A stretch of DNA of 64,000 nt from Flavobacterium beibuense F44-8. GTDB taxonomy: Bacteria > Bacteroidota > Bacteroidia > Flavobacteriales > Flavobacteriaceae. The notes beneath the pieces were generated by a model. That model was not told where the DNA came from, made no database searches, and saw only the letters and a list, made by a program, of their open reading frames with translations. The stretch is from the NCBI RefSeq assembly GCF_000769915.1, contig NZ_JRLV01000005.1, positions 1-64,000 of the forward strand. Reading direction: 5' to 3'. Position numbers and translations under genes: made by a program. Positions 40,235-49,548 of the stretch are shown here, piece after piece (positions within the stretch are counted from its first letter, which is position 1; every line of letters begins with the position of its first letter).

Positions 40235-40696
40235 TTATTGGGGTTCACGAAAGATGTATTTTTCATTATAGTCAATGTCAAATTTTTTTAGAAATTCAAG
40301 GTATTCTTCCCTGAAAGATTGTTTTTTATGATGCTCTTCCTGTTTATGTATATAGTTAATGACATTTTCTACATGTGATTTACTGTATGAAAAAGCTCCA
40401 TAGCCTTCCTGCCATTCAAACTTTCCCGTAATAAATCCTTTTTGGTTAATCCATAATGATGAGTTACGTTTAATATCTTGTAATAAGTCAGAAACTGACT
40501 GTGTAGGTCTCATTCCTATAAAAATGTGTATATGATCGGGCATGCCGTTAATGGCTAAAAGTTTGTGTCCGTTATTTTCTACAATGCCCGAAATATAAAG
40601 GTATAGTTCTTTTTTCCAAATAGGAGAGATTAGAGAATTTCTGTGTTTAACTGCAAAAACAAATTGTAAATGTATTTGGGTATAGGTATTTGCCAT
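40235..40696 (-). CDS. Solitary IS200-like (RAYT-type) Y1 transposase
   Basis: The 153-residue protein has the HUH motif MPDHIHIFIG (His-U-His) and the catalytic Tyr region GAFSYSKSHVENVINYIHKQEEHHKK, as in the IS200/IS605 TnpA family, with no accompanying tnpB. Beside its start lies an array of REP-like palindromes (40730-40998), so it resembles REP-associated tyrosine transposases, which are usually chromosomal and non-mobile. It is minus strand, facing ytxJ at its end. Confidence 0.88.
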   Translation of the reverse strand: MANTYTQIHLQFVFAVKHRNSLISPIWKKELYLYISGIVENNGHKLLAINGMPDHIHIFIGMRPTQSVSDLLQDIKRNSSLWINQKGFITGKFEWQEGYGAFSYSKSHVENVINYIHKQEEHHKKQSFREEYLEFLKKFDIDYNEKYIFREPQ

Positions 40697-40998: not shown

Positions 40999-42279
40999 TT
41001 AAATTATATTTTCCATTTTTTGTGTAATCTCGTTTAAGCACAAATTGTTTATACTGCCTTCATGAGAATGTTTTGTAGCTTTAGGAGAGACAAACGTACC
41101 GTTCTCTACCTGTTCGCCTACAATTTTATAAGCATCTCTAAAAGGTATACCCTGAGCTACCAGTTCGTTAAGCGCATCTACCGTAAACAGATAGTCGTAT
41201 TTTTTATCGTCCAGTATATTATCATTAACCTTAATCTCCTTAATGGAATAATGTGCCATTTCAAGGCAGGATTTCAATGTTTGTAAAGCAGGGAAAAGCC
41301 CTTCTTTAAGCAACTGGAATTCCCTGTGGTAACCACTTGGTAAATTATTGGTTATAAGAGTAAGCTCATAAGGCAATGCCTGTATTTTATTACACTTACC
41401 ACGAATAAGCTCAAAAATATCCGGGTTCTTTTTATGTGGCATAATGCTCGACCCTGTGGTTAAGTGCTGTGGCAGACTTATGAAATTAAAATTCTGACTC
41501 AGGTACAAACAAATGTCCATAGCCAGTTTTGATAATGTCCCCGCTACCGATGCTAATGCAAAAGCAGTAGTCTTTTCGGTTTTACCACGGCTCATTTGTG
41601 CGGCTACCGAATTGTATTTCAAAGTAGCAAAACCCAGTTCATTTGTGGTAAAAGTCCTGTCTATAGGGAAAGAGCTTCCGTACCCTGCTGCCGAACCTAA
41701 CGGATTCTGGTCGGTTACTGTTAGAGCTGCATTCAGCATAACAACATCGTCAATAAGACTTTCGGCATAGGCAGAAAACCACATCCCGAATGATGACGGC
41801 ATTGCAACCTGAAGGTGTGTATACCCCGGTAACAGTACATTTTGATTTTCACTTGCCATAGCCATAAGCAGGTCGAAAAAATCTTTAACCTGTTGTTTTA
41901 TGGTGGTGAGCTCCGCTTTTAGGTATAAGTGAACATCGGTAAGAACCTGATCGTTACGGGAACGTGCTGTGTGTATTTTTTTTCCGGCATCGCCCACCTT
42001 TTCAGTAAGCAGGTATTCTACTTTGCTGTGTACATCTTCAAAGCTATCCTCAATCAAAAAGTTTCCGGCTTTAATGTCTGCCAGTATCTCTTCCAGTCCG
42101 GTAACCAGTTCGCTTACTTCTTTATCGTTTAATAGTCCTGTTTTTCCAAGCATTTTGGCATGTGCCATAGACCCTATAACATCATATTCTGCCAGTACAA
42201 GATCCAGTTCGCGGTCATTGCCTACGGTGAATATATCGGTTTTCTTATCTGTTGGTATGCCTTTATCCCAAAGTTTCAT
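40999..42279 (-). CDS. argH: Argininosuccinate lyase
   Basis: The 426-residue fumarase/aspartase-superfamily enzyme has the signature GSSIMPHKKNPD and HSRNDQ-like ARSRNDQ and TAHSR-type motif. It splits argininosuccinate into arginine and fumarate, the last step of the pathway. Its ATG overlaps the argE stop by 1 bp, and it is the last gene of the arg operon. Its stop abuts the REP-like array, which may affect transcript 3' ends. Confidence 0.95.
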   Translation of the reverse strand: MKLWDKGIPTDKKTDIFTVGNDRELDLVLAEYDVIGSMAHAKMLGKTGLLNDKEVSELVTGLEEILADIKAGNFLIEDSFEDVHSKVEYLLTEKVGDAGKKIHTARSRNDQVLTDVHLYLKAELTTIKQQVKDFFDLLMAMASENQNVLLPGYTHLQVAMPSSFGMWFSAYAESLIDDVVMLNAALTVTDQNPLGSAAGYGSSFPIDRTFTTNELGFATLKYNSVAAQMSRGKTEKTTAFALASVAGTLSKLAMDICLYLSQNFNFISLPQHLTTGSSIMPHKKNPDIFELIRGKCNKIQALPYELTLITNNLPSGYHREFQLLKEGLFPALQTLKSCLEMAHYSIKEIKVNDNILDDKKYDYLFTVDALNELVAQGIPFRDAYKIVGEQVENGTFVSPKATKHSHEGSINNLCLNEITQKMENII

Positions 42280-43403
42280 TACTGTTGTTTTAATGTGGCC
42301 TCACTGGCCGTTTTGGTAGTATAATTAAGGAATTGGGAAAGTATCTTTATATACAGTTCAACTCCTTCTTTAATTTCATTGATATAAATAAACTCATCTG
42401 CCGAGTGTGAACGCAGTGATAATCCCGGCCCCAGTTTTAACGACTGGCAGCTTAGTACCGACTGGTCTGAAAGGGTAGGGGAACCATAGGTGGTTCTGCC
42501 CAATGCTATTCCTGCCTGTACAAGAGCATGCTCTTTTGCGATAGATGATGAGTTAAGGTGCAGTGACCTTGGTTTTACTGTTACCTTACCATTCTCAATA
42601 CCTGATTTTATGGTTTCCAGTACTTCAAGGTTGGTATAACAGTCGTTTACCCTTACATCCACAACAAGGTTGCATTCTGCCGGAACCACGTTGTGCTGTT
42701 TTCCTGCATTGATTTGGGTAACCGTCATTTTAACCGGACCTAATACGTCAGATACTTTTTCGAAACTATAGTCCCTAAACCATTCAATAACCTTTAAGGT
42801 GTTGTAAATGGCCATATCATCGTTAGGATGTGCAGCATGCCCAGGTGTCCCGGTTACGGTTACATCCAGTACCAGTAACCCTTTTTCGGCTATGGCAAGC
42901 TGCATTTCGGTAGGTTCGCCCACTATGGCACAATCAGGTTCGGGTAAATGCTTCAGTACACTGTTCAGTCCGTTAGGGCCGCTACTTTCTTCCTCTGCTG
43001 AGGCAACCATTACAATGTTATAAGGCAGGTTTTCAGCTTCATAAAAAAAGGTAAAGGTAGCGATTAGTGATACCAGGCATCCGCCGGCATCGTTACTGCC
43101 CAGCCCAAACAGTTTACCGTCCTGCTCAATAGCCTCAAATGGATCTAAAGTATAAGCCTGATTGGGCTTTACGGTATCATGGTGTGAGTTAAGTAGCAGG
43201 GTGGGCTTACCTTCAGCAAAATGCTTATTGAAGGCCCATATATTATTGTTTTCCCGTTTAAAAGAAATACTGTTATTATTAAACCATGCCTCAATCAGTT
43301 TTGCCGTATTCTCTTCTTCCGATGAAAAAGACGGAGTGGCAATAAGTGATTTAAGCAGGAGTATTGCTTCTTCGGTTAGGGTATGTATCGTTTTTAAACT
43401 CAT
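42279..43403 (-). CDS. argE: M20 family deacylase (ArgE-like, N-acylcitrulline deacylase)
   Basis: The 374-residue M20 peptidase-family protein has HHDTV (first metal His-Asp region), GSNDAGGCL, ASAEEESSGPNG and VGEPTEM. In Bacteroidota, whose OTCase analogue uses an N-acylated substrate, the same deacylase frees citrulline. Placement between argH and argB supports this. Translationally coupled to argH. Confidence 0.88.
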   Translation of the reverse strand: MSLKTIHTLTEEAILLLKSLIATPSFSSEEENTAKLIEAWFNNNSISFKRENNNIWAFNKHFAEGKPTLLLNSHHDTVKPNQAYTLDPFEAIEQDGKLFGLGSNDAGGCLVSLIATFTFFYEAENLPYNIVMVASAEEESSGPNGLNSVLKHLPEPDCAIVGEPTEMQLAIAEKGLLVLDVTVTGTPGHAAHPNDDMAIYNTLKVIEWFRDYSFEKVSDVLGPVKMTVTQINAGKQHNVVPAECNLVVDVRVNDCYTNLEVLETIKSGIENGKVTVKPRSLHLNSSSIAKEHALVQAGIALGRTTYGSPTLSDQSVLSCQSLKLGPGLSLRSHSADEFIYINEIKEGVELYIKILSQFLNYTTKTASEATLKQQ

Positions 43404-43414
43404 AGGTTTTGTTT

Positions 43415-44200
43415 TTAGAGCGACACCTGTGTGCAGGTTATTTCGTTCTGTTTTATCATTTCGGGACTGCCTATGTATACTGCTGATACGCCTTTGTTAA
43501 GGGCATCATAGCAGTTTTCCAGCTTTGGCAACATTCCCGAATGGATTATTTTTTCTTCTCGTAACTGACTGTATTTATCAAAAGTAAGTTTTTTTATAAC
43601 CGAATCGTCATCATCAGCATTGCTAAGCACCCCTTTTTTCTCAAAGCAATACAGTAGGTTTACGTTAAAGTCGTTACTGCAGGCTACGGCTAGTGCGCTG
43701 GCAATGGTGTCGGCATTTGTGTTAAGCAATTGCCCGTTACCATTGTGTGTAATGGCACAAAATACAGGGACTACATTTTGCTGTAATAACACTTTTACCA
43801 ATTTATGGTTTACCGAAACAATATCACCTACCCAACCAAAATCTATGGCAGCATTATTCCTTTTTTCAGAAAGGATCATGTTACCGTCGGCTCCTGTAAA
43901 GCCCAATGCGTTATTTTGTAATGCCTGTAGCTGTGCTGTTATATCTTTATTGATAAGTCCTGCATAGGTCATAACCGCCACATCCAACATAGGCTTATCG
44001 GTAATTCTCCTTCCTTCATGAAAAACGGGAGTAATACCTAAACCTTCGGCTGTTTTGGTTGCTATTTTGCCTCCGCCGTGTACCAGTATTTTGTAACCGC
44101 TTAATGCTGCAAAATCCTTAAGGAATGCCTTTAGGGTAGGTGTACTGTCAATTACATTACCGCCTATTTTTACAACGGTAAGTTTTGGCTTATTCTCCAT
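43415..44200 (-). CDS. argB: Acetylglutamate kinase
   Basis: The 261-residue kinase has VVKIGGNVID (N-terminal Lys-Gly-Gly), LVHGGGKIAT, and GVSAVYIGSPEM. It phosphorylates N-acylglutamate. It lies between argF' and argE and overlaps argF' by 11 bp. Length is on the short side, as in other Bacteroidota ArgB. Confidence 0.93.
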   Translation of the reverse strand: MENKPKLTVVKIGGNVIDSTPTLKAFLKDFAALSGYKILVHGGGKIATKTAEGLGITPVFHEGRRITDKPMLDVAVMTYAGLINKDITAQLQALQNNALGFTGADGNMILSEKRNNAAIDFGWVGDIVSVNHKLVKVLLQQNVVPVFCAITHNGNGQLLNTNADTIASALAVACSNDFNVNLLYCFEKKGVLSNADDDDSVIKKLTFDKYSQLREEKIIHSGMLPKLENCYDALNKGVSAVYIGSPEMIKQNEITCTQVSL

Positions 44201-45140
44201 GCTCCAATATTTTGGTTAGTATCGCCTGTGCGGCATACGTCCTGTTATTGGCTTGAGCTATAACGATAGATGTTTCACTGTCCAGTACCTCATCAGTAAC
44301 AATCATATTTCTCCTTACCGGAAGGCAATGCATAAACTTAGCATTGTTGGTAAGTTTCATCTTGTTGGCTGTTACAGTCCACGACGGATCTTTACAGGTT
44401 ATTTGTCCGTAATCCATATAGTTGCTCCAGTTCTTGGCATAAATAAAGTCGGCACCGGCAAAAGCCTCATCCTGATTGTGCGTAATGGTAACCCCTTTGG
44501 TAAACTCAGGGTTAAGCTCATACCCTTCAGGATGCGTGATAACAAAATCAACATCGGCCTTTTTCATAACCTTAACGAAAGAATTAGGTACGGCATGCGG
44601 CAGCGCTTTAGGATGCGGTGCCCATGTAAGTACGACTTTAGGCCTTTTTACGGTTTTATATTCCTCTATGGTTAAGGCATCGGCTACAGCCTGTAAAGGG
44701 TGTTCGGTAGCGCCTTCAAGGCTTATTACCGGAACAGATGCATATTTTTTAAAGGCAGAAATTACCTGCTCTTCCTCATCTTTCTGCTTATCGGTAAGAG
44801 TAGGGAAGCTTCTTACGGCAATAATGTCGCAGTATTGCGAAACAACCTGTGCGGCTTCTTTAATGTGTTCGGCCTTGTTGCCGTCCATTACTACACCGTC
44901 TTCAAACTCCAGTGCCCAGCCTTCGGTATTAAGGTTCATCACAATGGCATCCATCCCAAGGTTAAGGGCAGCCTTTTGTGTGCTGAGCCTGGTACGTAGG
45001 CTCGGGTTAAAAAACAATAGTCCCAGGGTTTTGTTTTCTCCTTTTTTTTTGTTGGCAAATGGTGCCTGCTTTATGTTTTTAGCTAACGCAATCAGTTCGT
45101 TAATATCCTGAATGTCGTCTACCGAAGTGAAGTGTTTCAT
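44190..45140 (-). CDS. argF': N-acylornithine carbamoyltransferase (AOTCase/SOTCase type)
   Basis: The 316-residue protein has the carbamoyl-phosphate motif FFNPSLRTRLS (43-53), the HCLPVRR motif, and helices typical of N-acyl-ornithine transcarbamylases rather than ArgF. Residue 90 is Ala (GNKAEH). In published work as I recall it, this position is Pro90 in Bacteroides fragilis SOTCase and Glu92 in Xanthomonas AOTCase, so the acyl group here is unclear. The argB overlap and argE neighbour fit the acylated pathway. Confidence 0.9.
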   Translation of the reverse strand: MKHFTSVDDIQDINELIALAKNIKQAPFANKKKGENKTLGLLFFNPSLRTRLSTQKAALNLGMDAIVMNLNTEGWALEFEDGVVMDGNKAEHIKEAAQVVSQYCDIIAVRSFPTLTDKQKDEEEQVISAFKKYASVPVISLEGATEHPLQAVADALTIEEYKTVKRPKVVLTWAPHPKALPHAVPNSFVKVMKKADVDFVITHPEGYELNPEFTKGVTITHNQDEAFAGADFIYAKNWSNYMDYGQITCKDPSWTVTANKMKLTNNAKFMHCLPVRRNMIVTDEVLDSETSIVIAQANNRTYAAQAILTKILEHGE

Positions 45141-45163
45141 TTTGTAATTAATTGAAAAATAAC

Positions 45164-46300
45164 TTATAAATCCTTTAATGCATTTTTAAGACCGATAAAA
45201 AAGCGGTCTATGTCCTCCTTGTTTATAGACAGTGGCGGTAGTATGCGCAGCAGGTTTTTTTGTGATGCACTACCGGTGAATATAAACTCGTTATAAATCA
45301 GTTTTTTCCGTAATTCGTTTATCTCAAAATCAAACTCAAGCCCTAGCATGAGTCCGCGTCCTTTGATCTTTTTAACCTGTGGTATAATAGCAGCCTGTTC
45401 CTTAAAATAGGCACTCATGGAGTTAACATTGTCCATAAGGTTTTCCTGCTCTATAACATCAAGCACCGCAGTTGCGGCTGCACAGGCAAGATGATTACCG
45501 CCAAAAGTAGTTCCCAGTAAACCGAATGATGCCTTAAACTTAGGTGAGATAAGGATGCCGCCAATAGGAAAGCCATTACCCATACCTTTTGCCATAGTGA
45601 TGATGTCCGGCTTTATATTGTGGTATTGGTGTGCAAAGAATTTACCCGAACGACCATAGCCACTCTGTATTTCATCCAGTATAAGTACTACATCATTATC
45701 GTTACAGGCTTTTTCTATAGCCTTAAAGAAAAGAGTAGTACCCTCGTCCAGTCCGCCTACACCCTGAATCCCTTCTATAATAACACAGCAAACATCACCT
45801 TTAGCCAGTTCTGCTTTTAAAGCTTCCTCATCGTTAAGCGGAAGAAAAACCACTTCGTGCCCTGCATTGATTGGTGCAACTATCGATGGGTTATCTGTAG
45901 CGGCTACTGCAGCAGAGGTACGTCCGTGGAAGGCCTTATTAAAAGCAACAACTTTCTTTTTACCGTTATGGAACGATGCCAGTTTAAGGGCATTCTCGTT
46001 AGCCTCAGCACCCGAGTTACACAGGAAAAGGCTATAATCAGGATAACCCGAAAAGCTAACCAGTTTTTTGCCCAGTTCTTCCTGTAACGGATTTTCGATT
46101 GAGTTGGAATAAAAACCCAGTTTCGCTACCTGTTCACTAACAGCCTTTACGTATACCGGATGTGAATGTCCGGCAGAGATAACTCCGTGACCTCCATAAA
46201 AATCAAGGTACTCCTGTCCTTTATCGTTCCAAACTTTTGCCCCCAGTGCCTTTACCGGAGTTATATTATATATAGGGTATACATTGAATAAATTACTCAT
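45164..46300 (-). CDS. argD: Acetylornithine/N-succinylornithine aminotransferase
   Basis: The 378-residue PLP aminotransferase has the lysine in MAKGMGNGFPIGG (Lys238), the LDEIQSGYGRSG motif and NSGAEANENA. It transfers the amino group to N-acylglutamate semialdehyde. It precedes argF' (23-bp gap) and is separated from argC by 95 bp holding REP-like palindromes. Confidence 0.94.
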   Translation of the reverse strand: MSNLFNVYPIYNITPVKALGAKVWNDKGQEYLDFYGGHGVISAGHSHPVYVKAVSEQVAKLGFYSNSIENPLQEELGKKLVSFSGYPDYSLFLCNSGAEANENALKLASFHNGKKKVVAFNKAFHGRTSAAVAATDNPSIVAPINAGHEVVFLPLNDEEALKAELAKGDVCCVIIEGIQGVGGLDEGTTLFFKAIEKACNDNDVVLILDEIQSGYGRSGKFFAHQYHNIKPDIITMAKGMGNGFPIGGILISPKFKASFGLLGTTFGGNHLACAAATAVLDVIEQENLMDNVNSMSAYFKEQAAIIPQVKKIKGRGLMLGLEFDFEINELRKKLIYNEFIFTGSASQKNLLRILPPLSINKEDIDRFFIGLKNALKDL

Positions 46301-46315
46301 TTTACTTTTTATTTA

Positions 46316-46390
46316 ACCTGCAAGGTATTTGTCCTTGTAGGTTTAGTTTTTTATTTAGCATACCTACAAGGTTTTTAAAACCTTGCAGGA
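46316..46390. repeat. Two REP-like palindromes in the argD-argC gap
   Basis: ACCTGCAAGG-TATTTGT-CCTTGTAGGT at 46316-46342, then ACCTACAAGG-TTTTTAAAA-CCTTGCAGGA at 46362-46390. Each is an inverted repeat with 10-bp arms, spaced by 19 bp, and the outer arms are complementary, so a large cruciform or RNA hairpin is possible inside the operon. No CRISPR-like structure. Confidence 0.8.
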
Positions 46391-46395
46391 AATTA

Positions 46396-47373
46396 TTAAA
46401 AACCGGTAGCCTTAAGCTGTAGTCCGGTGGTTTCGTCCAGCCCGAACATAAGGTTCATGTTTTGTATTGCCTGTCCCGAAGCGCCTTTTACAAGGTTGTC
46501 TATTACCGATGTGATTAAAAGGTAATCGCCTTTTTGCTCCAGGCTTATAAAACACTTGTTGGTTTGTACTGCCAGTTTCAGGTGGATACTATCGGTAGTT
46601 ACCCTAACAAAAGGTTGATTACTGTAATAGTCTTTATACATAGCTGTAACCTCATCAAAGCTTTTGCTTACTTTGGTATAAAGAGTTGCAAATATCCCGC
46701 GGGTAAAATCACCACGGTTTGGAATAAATAATACCTCCTGATTAAAACCGTTTTGCAACTGCCCAAGACTTTGTATGATTTCGCCCATGTGCTGATGCTC
46801 AAAAGCCTTATAGTGAGACATATTACCTATACGCCAAGGATGGTGTGAAGTAGCCGATGGCTGAACTCCTGCACCTGTACTACCTGTAGTAGCATTAATG
46901 TGTACCGCATTGTTTAGCAGTCCGTTTGCTGCCAGTGGTAATAAGCCCAACTGTATTGCTGTGGCAAAACACCCCGGATTAGCAATGTACTGTGCCTGTT
47001 TAATCTGGTTCTTATTCAGTTCAGGAAGCCCGTAAACAAAGTTTTTACCATTAAAAACAGTATCTTTCTCTAAACGGAAATCGTTCCCTAAATCTATTAT
47101 CCTTGTGTTTTCTAAAAACGCATTGGCTTCCAGAAAAGCGATTGACTTACCATGTCCCAGGCATAGGAAAACCACATCAACATCAGGGTTAACCGTATTG
47201 GTAAAGTTAAGTTCAAGATCGCCATACAGGTCCTGGTGCACACTTGCTACCGGACTGCCCGCGTTTGTAGTGCTGTAAACAAAATCAATATTTGCCTGCG
47301 GATGGTTTGCTAGCAGTCGTAACAATTCGCCTGCTGTGTAGCCTGATCCGCCTATAATACCAATGTTAATCAT
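46396..47373 (-). CDS. argC: N-acetyl-gamma-glutamyl-phosphate reductase
   Basis: The 325-residue enzyme has the GIIGGSGYTAGELLRLL NADPH motif, and the catalytic Cys135 in ANPGCFAT. It reduces N-acylglutamyl phosphate to the semialdehyde. Start overlaps the argG stop by 8 bp. The 95-bp gap to argD is the only sizeable break in the operon. Confidence 0.95.
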   Translation of the reverse strand: MINIGIIGGSGYTAGELLRLLANHPQANIDFVYSTTNAGSPVASVHQDLYGDLELNFTNTVNPDVDVVFLCLGHGKSIAFLEANAFLENTRIIDLGNDFRLEKDTVFNGKNFVYGLPELNKNQIKQAQYIANPGCFATAIQLGLLPLAANGLLNNAVHINATTGSTGAGVQPSATSHHPWRIGNMSHYKAFEHQHMGEIIQSLGQLQNGFNQEVLFIPNRGDFTRGIFATLYTKVSKSFDEVTAMYKDYYSNQPFVRVTTDSIHLKLAVQTNKCFISLEQKGDYLLITSVIDNLVKGASGQAIQNMNLMFGLDETTGLQLKATGF

Positions 47374-48559
47374 AGCTTTCTCCGTTTACCTGTGCATAAA
47401 TATTTTGTGCGTTGCCTAATATCTTAATAAAGCCTTTGGCATCGTTAGATGTCCAGGCATTGTTCACCTCACCATACTGCCCAAACTTGGTATTCATCAA
47501 ATCGTGAGCCGACTCAATTCCGTCCAGCGTAAAGTGATAAGGTTTAAGGCTTACCCTTACAGTACCTGTTACCGTTTTTTGAGTGTCCTCTAAAAACACT
47601 TCCACATTTCTCATCACCGGGTCTAGGTATTGCCCTTCATGGAAAAGCATTCCGTACCAGTTGCCCAGTTGCTCTTTCCAGTATAGTTGCCATTTGCCCA
47701 GTACATGTTTCTCTAAAAGGTGGTGTGCTTTAATGATGATAAGCGGAGCAGCCGCTTCAAAGCCCACACGTCCTTTAATACCTATAATGGTGTCGCCCAC
47801 ATGTATATCCCTGCCTATGGCAAAGGCAGATGCCAGTGCTTCAAGCTTCTGGATATTAACCGAAGGCTTATCAAACTCGTTATTGATACCTGTAAGTTCG
47901 CCTTTTTCAAAGTGAAGTACAACTTTTTCAGGTTGCGTTTTTGTTAATGGAGAAGGGTAGGCTTCTTCCGGTAACGGTTGTGATGAGGTTAGGGTTTCCT
48001 TACCGCCTACGCTGGTGCCCCATATCCCTTTGTTAATGGAGTACTGTGCTTTTTCCCAGCTGTATTCCACACCGTTTTCCTGCAGGTAAGCCACTTCTTC
48101 CTGACGTGTAAGTTTAAGGTCACGTATAGGGGTAATGATAGTCATTTCCGGAGCTATGGTTTGGAATACCATATCAAAACGGATCTGGTCGTTACCAGCA
48201 CCCGTACTGCCGTGAGCAATGGCTTCGGCACCTACGCTTTTTGCATATTTAACCGTTTCCAGTGCCTGAAAAACCCTTTCGGCACTTACAGAAAGCGGAT
48301 AGGTGTTGTTTTTAAGTACGTTACCAAATACAAGGTACTTAATTGCTTTTTCATAATATTTATCAATAATGTCTAGGTTTACGTGATGGGAACTCCCCAG
48401 TTCGTATGCCCTTGTTTCTATACCGTTTAATTCTTCAGGAGTAAAACCGCCTGTGTTTATAAGTATGGTATGCACTTCATACCCCAGTTCGTTTTTTAGG
48501 TACTTAAGGCAGTAAGAGGTGTCAAGACCGCCGCTGTAAGCTAAAACTACTTTTTTCAT
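47366..48559 (-). CDS. argG: Argininosuccinate synthase
   Basis: The 397-residue enzyme has the ATP motif LAYSGGLDTS (7-14), the AHGSTGAGNDQIRF motif and WGTSVGG. It joins citrulline and aspartate. It overlaps both neighbours: 1 bp with the GNAT gene upstream (TAATG) and 8 bp with argC. Confidence 0.96.
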   Translation of the reverse strand: MKKVVLAYSGGLDTSYCLKYLKNELGYEVHTILINTGGFTPEELNGIETRAYELGSSHHVNLDIIDKYYEKAIKYLVFGNVLKNNTYPLSVSAERVFQALETVKYAKSVGAEAIAHGSTGAGNDQIRFDMVFQTIAPEMTIITPIRDLKLTRQEEVAYLQENGVEYSWEKAQYSINKGIWGTSVGGKETLTSSQPLPEEAYPSPLTKTQPEKVVLHFEKGELTGINNEFDKPSVNIQKLEALASAFAIGRDIHVGDTIIGIKGRVGFEAAAPLIIIKAHHLLEKHVLGKWQLYWKEQLGNWYGMLFHEGQYLDPVMRNVEVFLEDTQKTVTGTVRVSLKPYHFTLDGIESAHDLMNTKFGQYGEVNNAWTSNDAKGFIKILGNAQNIYAQVNGESYD

Positions 48560-49182
48560 TATACTTTTTCTTTTTTAAGGAAAAGTGCCAGCTTTATATT
48601 TTTAAGCCTTAGCAGCACTTTTTTGTTAAACGTGTATTTTTCTTCTGTTTTCTTTTTGGCAGGGTCATACAGCATACCGGTACAAAGGCACATTTTGTAC
48701 TCTTTGCGCTCCAGTATATCGAAGTTTGAACAGCCACGGCATCCGTTCCAAAAGCTTGGATCGTCTGTAAGTTCGCTAAAAGGCACCGGCTTGTAGCCTA
48801 AATCAGAATTGATTTTCATAACGGCCAGCCCTGTGGTGATACCAAATATTTTTGCTCCCGGATATTTTTCCTGAGAGTATTTAAATACTTTTTCCTTTAT
48901 TTTTTTTGCAAGCCCCAGTGCCCTATAATCAGGATGCACTATAAGACCTGAGTTTGCCACAAACTTGCCGTGAGACCAGCTCTCTATATAGCAAAAGCCT
49001 GCAAACTTTCCGTTTACGGTTGCTACCACTGCATCGCGGTTCTCCATTTTCTTCATAACATACTCAGGGGTTCTTCGGGCAATACCCGTACCTCTTTGTA
49101 CGGCAGAAGCGTTGATGGTCTCACAAATTTCTTCTGCAAATTTGTAGTGCTCTTCGTGAGCTATTACAATAGATACATTCAT
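48559..49182 (-). CDS. GNAT acyltransferase, probable N-acetylglutamate synthase
   Basis: The 207-residue GNAT protein has motif A VHPDYRALGLAKKI (82-95). The C-terminal extension has a Cys cluster (C148xxC151 and C165xC167) in a region between the GNAT fold and a basic tail. It is the first gene of the arg operon and no other argA or argJ is visible, so it likely supplies N-acetylglutamate (or its acyl equivalent). The Cys cluster could bind zinc. The specific acyl donor is unknown. Confidence 0.75.
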   Translation of the reverse strand: MNVSIVIAHEEHYKFAEEICETINASAVQRGTGIARRTPEYVMKKMENRDAVVATVNGKFAGFCYIESWSHGKFVANSGLIVHPDYRALGLAKKIKEKVFKYSQEKYPGAKIFGITTGLAVMKINSDLGYKPVPFSELTDDPSFWNGCRGCSNFDILERKEYKMCLCTGMLYDPAKKKTEEKYTFNKKVLLRLKNIKLALFLKKEKV

Positions 49183-49517
49183 TTCAGTACTAATAGAAAT
49201 AAATTAATATATGATCAATAAAATAAACAGGGTAAAACGGTGCCGGACGGATCGGACCATAGTGATATTGTAGACCTTACGGTCTGAATCGTCGTCGATT
49301 CTCTAAAGAATTAGGATTAGATATAAAAGAATGGCCTTTTACTACAGACCTTAAAAAAACAGATAGTGTTTTCAATTCCGTTAAAATAAAATTAATACTA
49401 AATAAAGTACACCCAGTATGTGGCAGGTATAATTATACCAACCGCACAACCCGGTAGTTAACCCGGATAGCTGTTTGATTTTTAGGGAGTTTAGTATTAA
49501 ATCTATTTTTATTCATC
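49183..49517 (-). promoter_or_regulatory. Structured 5' leader of the arg operon (candidate attenuator)
   Basis: About 330 nt separates the predicted transcript start from the GNAT ATG. It holds, on the minus strand in order: a leader peptide (49516-49433); a palindrome GGTATAATTATACC (49439-49426) over its stop; a GGTCTG segment (49350-49345) able to pair with CAGACC (49286-49281); two tight adjacent hairpins GAATCG-ACGA-CGATTC (49301-49286) and AGACC-GTAA-GGTCT (49285-49272); and a GC-rich hairpin (49258-49239) followed by GTTTT. The CAGACC segment can join only one of two helices, so mutually exclusive folds are possible. Confidence 0.6.
49433..49516 (-). CDS. Arginine-rich leader peptide (27 aa), candidate argL
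   Basis: ATG at 49516-49514, TAA at 49435-49433. The peptide begins MNKNRFNTKLPKNQTA and its last third reads IRVNYRVVRLV. Arg codons are AGA at position 5 and CGG at positions 18, 22 and 25. CGG seems uncommon for Arg in this genome, where AGA, CGT and AGG are seen far more often. A cluster of rare Arg codons just before the stop, followed by alternative hairpins upstream of arginine genes, is the classic signature of ribosome-mediated attenuation. No direct evidence of translation. Confidence 0.6.
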   Translation of the reverse strand: MNKNRFNTKLPKNQTAIRVNYRVVRLV

Positions 49518-49548
49518 GTTGCAAATTTATAATTTAAATTAAACGATG
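49514..49548. promoter_or_regulatory. arg promoter: TAAATTTG flanked by CATCGTT/AACGATG
   Basis: The minus-strand -7 box TAAATTTG is at 49529-49522, 5 bases before the leader ATG. Around it lie arms CATCGTT (plus 49514-49520) and AACGATG (49542-49548), a 7-bp inverted repeat with 21-bp spacing. A regulator bound there would cover the promoter. The AAACGAT half-site recurs in the fahA-glyA promoter (51071). Confidence 0.6.

Follow-up and report, generated by a model that had tools for sequence, protein, structure and literature searches.

A candidate tandem leader-ORF control of the arginine operon in Flavobacterium beibuense and related Flavobacteriaceae

Control of the arginine operon of Flavobacterium beibuense F44-8 by leader peptides that respond to Arg-tRNA supply is very likely, judged from the comparison of related leader sequences. 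The window, a stretch of 64,000 nucleotides of contig NZ_JRLV01000005.1, carries on the minus strand an arginine-making operon in the order GNAT-argG-argC-argD-acetylornithine carbamoyltransferase-argB-argE-argH. Its leader extends over about 334 nt up to the GNAT start codon at 49182, in agreement with the about 330 nt of the original prediction, and holds two short open reading frames, uORF1 and uORF2, and a conserved hairpin pair, P1 and P2. The arginine-rich short ORFs and the hairpin pair together probably let the cell turn the arg genes on at low arginine. A tandem relay of both ORFs that senses Arg-tRNA supply and controls the operon is our proposal for the mechanism, to which we give slightly less than an even chance. 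Comparison established both ORFs, the placement of their starts and stops, a helix H0 in two of three groups of relatives, P1 and P2. The features are:

49522..49529, minus strand: promoter -7 box TAAATTTG, the sole TAHHTTTG within 378 nt upstream of GNAT
49433..49516, minus strand: uORF1, 27 codons, MNKNRFNTKLPKNQTAIRVNYRVVRLV and stop, with three rare CGG arginine codons near the end; kept in relatives
49490..49509, minus strand: 5' strand of H0, within uORF1 (minimum-energy fold; own-versus-other pairing test)
49420..49447, minus strand: hairpin over the last CGG codon (49444-49442) and the uORF1 stop (fold)
49383..49402, minus strand: 3' strand of H0, located in the U-rich spacer with 7 nt left to the uORF2 start (fold and pairing test)
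49277..49375, minus strand: uORF2, TTG start, 32 codons, LKTLSVFLRSVVKGHSFISNPNSLENRRRFRP, ending NRRRFRP and stop; RP-stop ORF and fixed start in relatives
49289..49297, minus strand: uORF2 arginine run CGA CGA CGA; synonymous changes in close relatives
49272..49285, minus strand: P1 hairpin AGACC-GUAA-GGUCU, the loop holding the uORF2 stop UAA; paired and covarying in relatives
49239..49258, minus strand: P2 hairpin with pentaloop UCCGU (49251-49247), the terminator of the original prediction; covariation and model match
48559..49182, minus strand: GNAT acetyltransferase gene, the first of the operon (Pfam PF00583)
40999..48559, minus strand: argG, argC, argD, N-acetylornithine carbamoyltransferase, argB, argE/dapE-like and argH genes (NCBIfam)

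The NCBIfam scores of argG, argD and the argE/dapE-like gene were below the curated cut-offs, and the GNAT protein had no NCBIfam match. A search for the GNAT gene found it in 130 of the 199 genomes from the family and in 37 of the 61 from the genus. F. rakeshii (L281) was the nearest named relative found, with a GNAT protein of 100 % identity and a leader differing in places. A DNA search with the leader in 398 genus genomes gave matches in 114, full-length only in two besides the own genome; one partial match was used (G437, 80 % over 55 nt), the remaining short matches were set aside unread as AT-rich chance. Downstream of argH lies an ORF (40235-40696, minus strand) which by its sequence appears to be an IS200/REP-type transposase. 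The transcript-start box TAAATTTG of the original prediction is present at 49529-49522, and 5 nt separate its end from the uORF1 ATG. A TAnnTTTG box was located 4-6 nt 5' of the uORF1 ATG in 27 of 34 genus loci. Many boxes of F. johnsoniae are placed 4-5 nt upstream of the transcription start, according to passages of PMC6847099; with this spacing the uORF1 mRNA, its 5' end being predicted from the promoter box, is probably leaderless or nearly so. Eleven of 43 genus loci had a TAHHTTTG box within the last 250 nt of the leader, thus internal promoters are possible in those loci.

The first ORF was correctly described in the original prediction as a 27-codon frame (49516-49433) with the arginine codons AGA, CGG, CGG and CGG; the CGG codons are codons 18, 22 and 25. 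Among the window's 56 intergenic ATG ORFs of 15-40 aa, intergenic being defined as outside the 60 window ORFs of at least 120 aa, uORF1 was the only one with at least three arginines in the last 10 residues. Conservation of the short frame, on which the prediction hinged, was confirmed: 147 of 162 leaders of relatives contained an Arg-ending short ORF, i.e., a short ATG ORF with at least two arginines among the last 12 residues (last 16 within the genus), where Markov shuffles gave an expectation of 26.2. When at least three of the last 8 residues had to be arginine, 99 of the 128 loci from outside the genus were positive versus 1.2 expected. Shuffle counts, here and below, overstate independence because the leader sequences are AT-rich and related. 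In L289 the scan for terminal arginines detected no uORF1, and in L288 and L291 it settled on different frames. Fourteen loci, L160-L173 (six distant GNAT copies and eight second paralogs), were kept outside the counts of Arg-ending ORFs and terminators. In four of them, the genus members L160, L162, L163 and L164 with a more distant GNAT (55-59 % identity), the leader ORFs end in CGG-rich runs, e.g., SRSSRSRA, and have little similarity to the uORF1 of other loci. Upstream of the second, more distant GNAT copy of eight genus genomes (L166-L173), no leader ORF ending in an arginine run stood out. Neither the uORF1 nor the uORF2 peptide matched Pfam at E values up to 10, in a search whose filters may miss weak matches of short peptides. 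In the genus main group a hairpin covaries at the place matching the last CGG codon and the uORF1 stop; the consensus structure of this group consists of three small local hairpins only, of which two are located around this codon and the stop.

Codon usage agrees with a sensing function of the CGG codons. A comparison of CGG usage, suggested with the original prediction and run on the window genes, revealed CGG as the rarest arginine codon, with 13 of 582 in ORFs of at least 120 aa and 7 of 388 in ORFs of at least 250 aa (1.8-2.2 %). In uORF1, 99 of 110 arginine codons over 43 genus loci are CGG, and the last arginine codon is CGG in 43 of 43. These loci are two chosen groups (27 and 16), without L210, L288-L291 and L160-L165; the conservation of the predicted CGG run holds for them, but it is no genus-wide rule, as L210 and L290, outside the 43, use CGA and AGA/AGG. 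A tRNA-Arg(CCG) was not found in the own draft genome; tRNA-Arg with the anticodons UCU, CCU, UCG and ACG were seen among 36 hits, one of which was partial and not confirmed as tRNA. The arginine regulator ArgR (PF02863) was detected in 0 of 40 relatives, own genome included, by a search that was positive in 8 of 14 control genomes, one of them a Bacteroides.

The second arginine-rich ORF, uORF2, was missed by the original prediction. Its 3' end in the window, AAT CGA CGA CGA TTC AGA CCG TAA, stands directly before P1, with the stop inside this hairpin, and lies 94 nt upstream of GNAT. Close relatives showed synonymous changes in the arginine run (CGT/CGC, AGG/CGA); the run was not kept throughout the window's lineage. 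An RP-stop ORF with a start codon was present in 14 of 16 Flavobacterium loci fetched later, the other two ending RS-stop (L283) and NP-stop (L287); two of the 16 are not new, since the leader of L282 equals that of L209 where printed and L293 likewise repeats L031. Translation initiation in the Bacteroidetes phylum proceeds mostly without Shine-Dalgarno sites. A start codon at codon 28-29 upstream of P1 was found in 42 of 45 family loci (22 TTG, 13 GTG, 7 ATG), and other offsets had a mean of 0.53 start codons per offset. The frame was open in 48 of 49 family loci, with 12.2 expected and counts of 3 and 1 in the other frames. The set of 49 includes a few loci with weak uORF1 calls, the set of 45 is the stricter choice of family loci with both uORFs. 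In 25 of 27 loci of the genus main group, an ORF from the matching TTG stays open as far as the GNAT start (0.49 expected, 0 in the other frames), and its stop coincides with the GNAT start in 22 of 27, one base 5' of the ATG in 16 and in an ATGA overlap in 6. This group comprises L002, L032, L033 and L035-L058, the TTG-started ORF beginning about 190 nt upstream of GNAT; in L038 the frame seems to continue into GNAT without a stop. Thus uORF2 occurs in two states: with an Arg-codon end and the stop inside P1 in the window and many distant relatives, and open to the GNAT start in the main group. Purifying selection on the uORF2 peptide was considered and dropped: pN/pS among nine close relatives was 0.86 in frame versus 0.45 and 0.94 in the other frames, which gives no clear sign. 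The openness of uORF2 is kept by selection, its peptide not clearly so.

The two hairpins at and beyond the end of uORF2 are homologous to an element of the family, a relation that the original prediction had not recognized. The string GGTGNGTCC occurred in the upstream regions of 111 out of 173 loci, none of them in the window's genus, at a distance from GNAT of mostly 50-65 nt. In the family form it lies within P2, and P1 (CGCCC-GUAA-GGGUG) is located 5' of it. Alignment A1 was built from 78 of the 111 motif loci, A2 and the covariance model R1 from 40 of those 78; because the loci were picked by that string, invariance of the loop in A1 and A2 is by construction, that of the stems not. R1 contained 28 double-change cells versus 10 in shuffles. 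Each of the 18 family genomes chosen for the search gave one strong match, in every case at the arg operon (E at most 6e-8, next best 0.09). Of these genomes 8 had contributed sequence to the model and 10 had not; two of the latter, G096 and G174, were matched though they lack the string. Over 247 phylum genomes R1 matched 13, 12 of them in the family. The lone match outside the family (L246:1501-1547, E 0.0027) is beside another gene and was taken as chance; it adjoins the start of an opposite-strand ORF which presumably resembles rimP. A structured element upstream of rimP in flavobacteria appears in passages of PMC9723704.

P1/P2 of the window has diverged too far to be recognized by R1 (3.2 bits), and further copies were not found in the own genome with this model (best E 0.72), which also misses the window's own copy. 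The lineage model R2, built from 18 loci without the window and L281, matched the window with 42.9 bits (E 5.7e-11, next best 0.026). R2 includes L282 (F. beibuense); L209 is not independent of it because the L282 leader equals the L209 leader where printed. Among 56 loci, R2 also matched the distant R1 sites of L069 (7e-6), L062 (4e-5) and L065 (1e-4), and was weaker or absent elsewhere. P1 and P2 were paired in 84.5 % of cells, a value reached by 4 of 500 shuffles, and their covariation was reached by 3 of 500. In the relatives P2 had changes on both sides at 7 of 7 pairs, and 0 of 500 shuffles reached the covariation score of the whole structure. By eye, the P2 loop reads U-N-N-G-Y in 18 of 18 lineage sequences and is closed by GG:CC in 12; the family loop is U-G-N-G-U closed by GG:CC, and in the window an A replaces one G. 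Complementarity of the P2 loop to the 16S 3' end, noticed by eye, was dropped because the loop becomes UCCGY in the window's lineage. Pairing of the loop with CGCC of P1 was dropped as well, covariation not being seen by eye in A2. Rfam 15 gave no match at the gathering score for the window and 12 relatives; two matches were far below their gathering scores. P1/P2 was not found in the genus main group, where uORF1 persists.

An element of this distribution could itself be the main sensor, a ligand- or protein-binding RNA to which the ORFs are secondary. The recurrence of GGTGNGTCC, the single match per genome at the arg operon and the covarying stems fit such a role; however, uORF1 outlasts the hairpins in the main group, P1/P2 offers 12-13 pairs only and arginine codons recur 5' of it, so that we regard this as very improbable. 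Alternatively, the R(R)P-stop end of uORF2 may arrest the ribosome as a nascent peptide sensing free arginine, in the way described for TnaC and tryptophan. The (R)RP-stop indeed recurs at the uORF2 end of loci with P1, but it can follow from the P1 RNA (CCG UAA), 19 of the 111 motif loci have no such end and neither has the window's uORF1. This explanation is scarcely probable.

The original prediction assigned the hairpins to ribosome-mediated attenuation. In the classical form, a stall in uORF1 picks an antiterminator over an intrinsic terminator at 49258-49239. The features expected for such an attenuator, a leader peptide rich in cognate codons and an operon making the same amino acid, are present here, and passages of PMC9723704 propose this control for amino-acid operons of F. 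psychrophilum. The GC-rich hairpin at 49258-49239 followed by GTTTT is in the sequence as predicted, but a scan for terminators (hairpin energy at most -7, then at least 4 T) did not call P2 and called instead a weak 5-bp site with a U-rich tail at 49350-49333, which by eye is also in L208 and L209. The positive control of the scan was found, a strong intrinsic terminator of 9 pairs and a T run (49712-49691, minus strand) downstream of the fumarylacetoacetase-like gene located ahead of the arg leader. None of the 34 genus leaders, the window among them, contained a terminator-like site; such sites were detected in 9 of 113 leaders from elsewhere in the family and, among the 16 genus leaders fetched later, in one (L291). 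Only 14 of 111 family loci had T4 within 12 nt after P2. The segments of the proposed competing helix, GGTCTG (49350-49345) and CAGACC (49286-49281), are present as predicted, but the pairing was not conserved: over seven relatives, window included, GGUCUG:CAGACC was 62 % paired, which 78 of 500 shuffles reached, and 135 of 500 reached its covariation. P1 and P2 are compatible and not mutually exclusive. The helix of the original prediction was thus rejected as a conserved antiterminator, and so was the intrinsic terminator as general mechanism. Of the attenuation hypothesis, control at arginine codons is well supported, and the intrinsic-terminator form is not; the classical mechanism is quite improbable.

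The minimum-energy fold of the whole leader was better than 100 of 100 shuffles (z -4.3). It contains the helix H0 between the 5' end of uORF1 and the spacer before uORF2. Pairing of the own uORF1 5' end with the own spacer was tested against the spacers of other loci by 5000 permutations, without five loci of the genus main group, in which the script chose an upstream ATG, and without L209 of the window's lineage. Own pairing was better among the 15 loci of the window's lineage and among the 36 of the family group with two uORFs, with p 0.0002 each, the floor of the test; H0 was not supported in the genus main group (22 loci, p 0.94), therefore the relay there must differ. The negative control, the 5' end against the GNAT start, gave p values of 0.30, 0.80 and 0.99. 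An earlier shuffle test had yielded mean z values of -0.47 for the main group, -1.49 for the window's lineage and -1.75 for the two-uORF family group. Folds with a ribosome placed on the leader were compared by the unpaired fraction of the region before uORF2. In the window it was 0.14 for the free leader, 0.14 with a ribosome at the last arginine codon and 0.46 with the 5' end covered. The corresponding values were 34 %, 34 % and 57 % for 36 family loci, 34 of which rise, and 44 %, 46 % and 55 % for 22 main-group loci. In 16 loci of the window's lineage (47 %, 45 % and 58 %) the gain was small with 10 rising, and in L283 the value drops from 0.59 to 0.40 when the 5' end is covered. H0 thus hides the start region of uORF2, covaries in two of three groups and opens in the folds only with the 5' end covered. 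A single ribosome stalled at the last arginine codon is not enough to open the uORF2 region in these folds, so queueing of ribosomes has to be assumed.

For the proposed tandem relay we infer stalling, queueing, the direction of the effect and an output by Rho protection, coupling or both. With ample arginine, ribosomes would clear uORF1, H0 would close and uORF2 would be little translated. The naked, long and U-rich leader would then cause the operon to be cut short, with Rho as the likely agent, or GNAT to be poorly translated. When charged tRNA-Arg is scarce, ribosomes would stall at the CGG codons of uORF1 and queue back over the 5' end; the covered 5' end would block H0, uORF2 would be translated and the operon expressed by shielding, by coupling to GNAT or by both. 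Where uORF2 ends in arginine codons, a ribosome stalled there may provide a second check by preventing P1 from closing. A factor is probably bound by P2. An arginine run at the uORF2 end would also stall ribosomes in starvation, so the effect could have either sign.

A simpler explanation is Rho-dependent attenuation alone, in which translation of the uORFs only shields a G-poor leader from Rho, without H0 or coupling. The stretch from uORF1 to GNAT is indeed U-rich and G-poor in genus leaders (U 44 %, C 16 %, G 10 %), an open uORF2 without clear selection on the peptide fits mere shielding and Salmonella orf34 works partly so according to passages of PMC6386406. It leaves unexplained, however, the covarying H0, the main-group stop at the GNAT start and P2, and a literature search on Rho in these species gave nothing useful. 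We consider Rho alone unlikely.

Extended to the Flavobacteriaceae without ArgR, the tandem relay would control arginine synthesis in all of them: ribosomes queueing on a first ORF that is nearly leaderless would open a second ORF with a non-ATG start, which became either a second arginine sensor, with its stop in the loop of a P1/P2 element present once per genome at the arg operon, or was stretched to couple the first gene. This generalization is tentative. It would explain in concrete terms how arginine is sensed by flavobacteria in which ArgR is not detectable. The control region would then take several forms across relatives, with one ORF, with two sensor ORFs, or with a sensor and a coupled ORF. 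The conserved hairpin pair, outside Rfam 15, is a target for finding an RNA-binding partner.

Known systems share parts of this arrangement. An arginine leader peptide in Bacteroidetes was not found in searches of open-licence PMC papers, consistent with the original prediction, which knew of no described arg case in Flavobacteriia. A search for tandem leader peptides returned ermBL/ermBL2 but no arginine case among the matches listed. Within the reach of these searches, no description was met of the tandem arrangement, of the coupled variant or of the P1/P2 element. In attenuators of the trp/his type, a biosynthetic operon is preceded by a leader peptide rich in codons of the amino acid concerned, and a hairpin lies at the control codons. 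The leaders studied here share both properties with them and with the F. psychrophilum attenuators, which passages of PMC9723704 propose for amino-acid operons, with elements upstream of pheA and hisG among others and not arg. They differ from both in that no terminator or competing antiterminator was found and a second ORF intervenes. The ermBL/ermBL2 leader of ermB likewise has two leader peptides in one regulatory region, but in the passages of PMC8274638 it is induced by erythromycin and not by tRNA charging. Passages of PMC13009471 on rbfL-rbf of S. aureus describe a mini-ORF with GUG start and rare arginine codons, by which arginine supply sets the translation of the next gene; unlike in the relay proposed here, the stall represses by covering the ribosome-binding site, the single ORF has 8 residues and the gene is a biofilm regulator. 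The nearest tested precedent, in the passages of PMC6386406, is Salmonella orf34 (speFL) upstream of speF-potE. It is a single ORF at +32 and not leaderless, its gene is an ornithine decarboxylase and not one of arginine synthesis, its peptide belongs to the family DUF2618, whereas the window's two peptides have no Pfam match, and those passages mention neither P1/P2 nor an ORF that ends at the first gene. As proposed here, its arginine codons (rare AGG CGG) change the folding of the mRNA by arginine supply and act via folding, Rho and translation; Rho and downstream translation were both involved, and its authors saw no rho-independent terminator.
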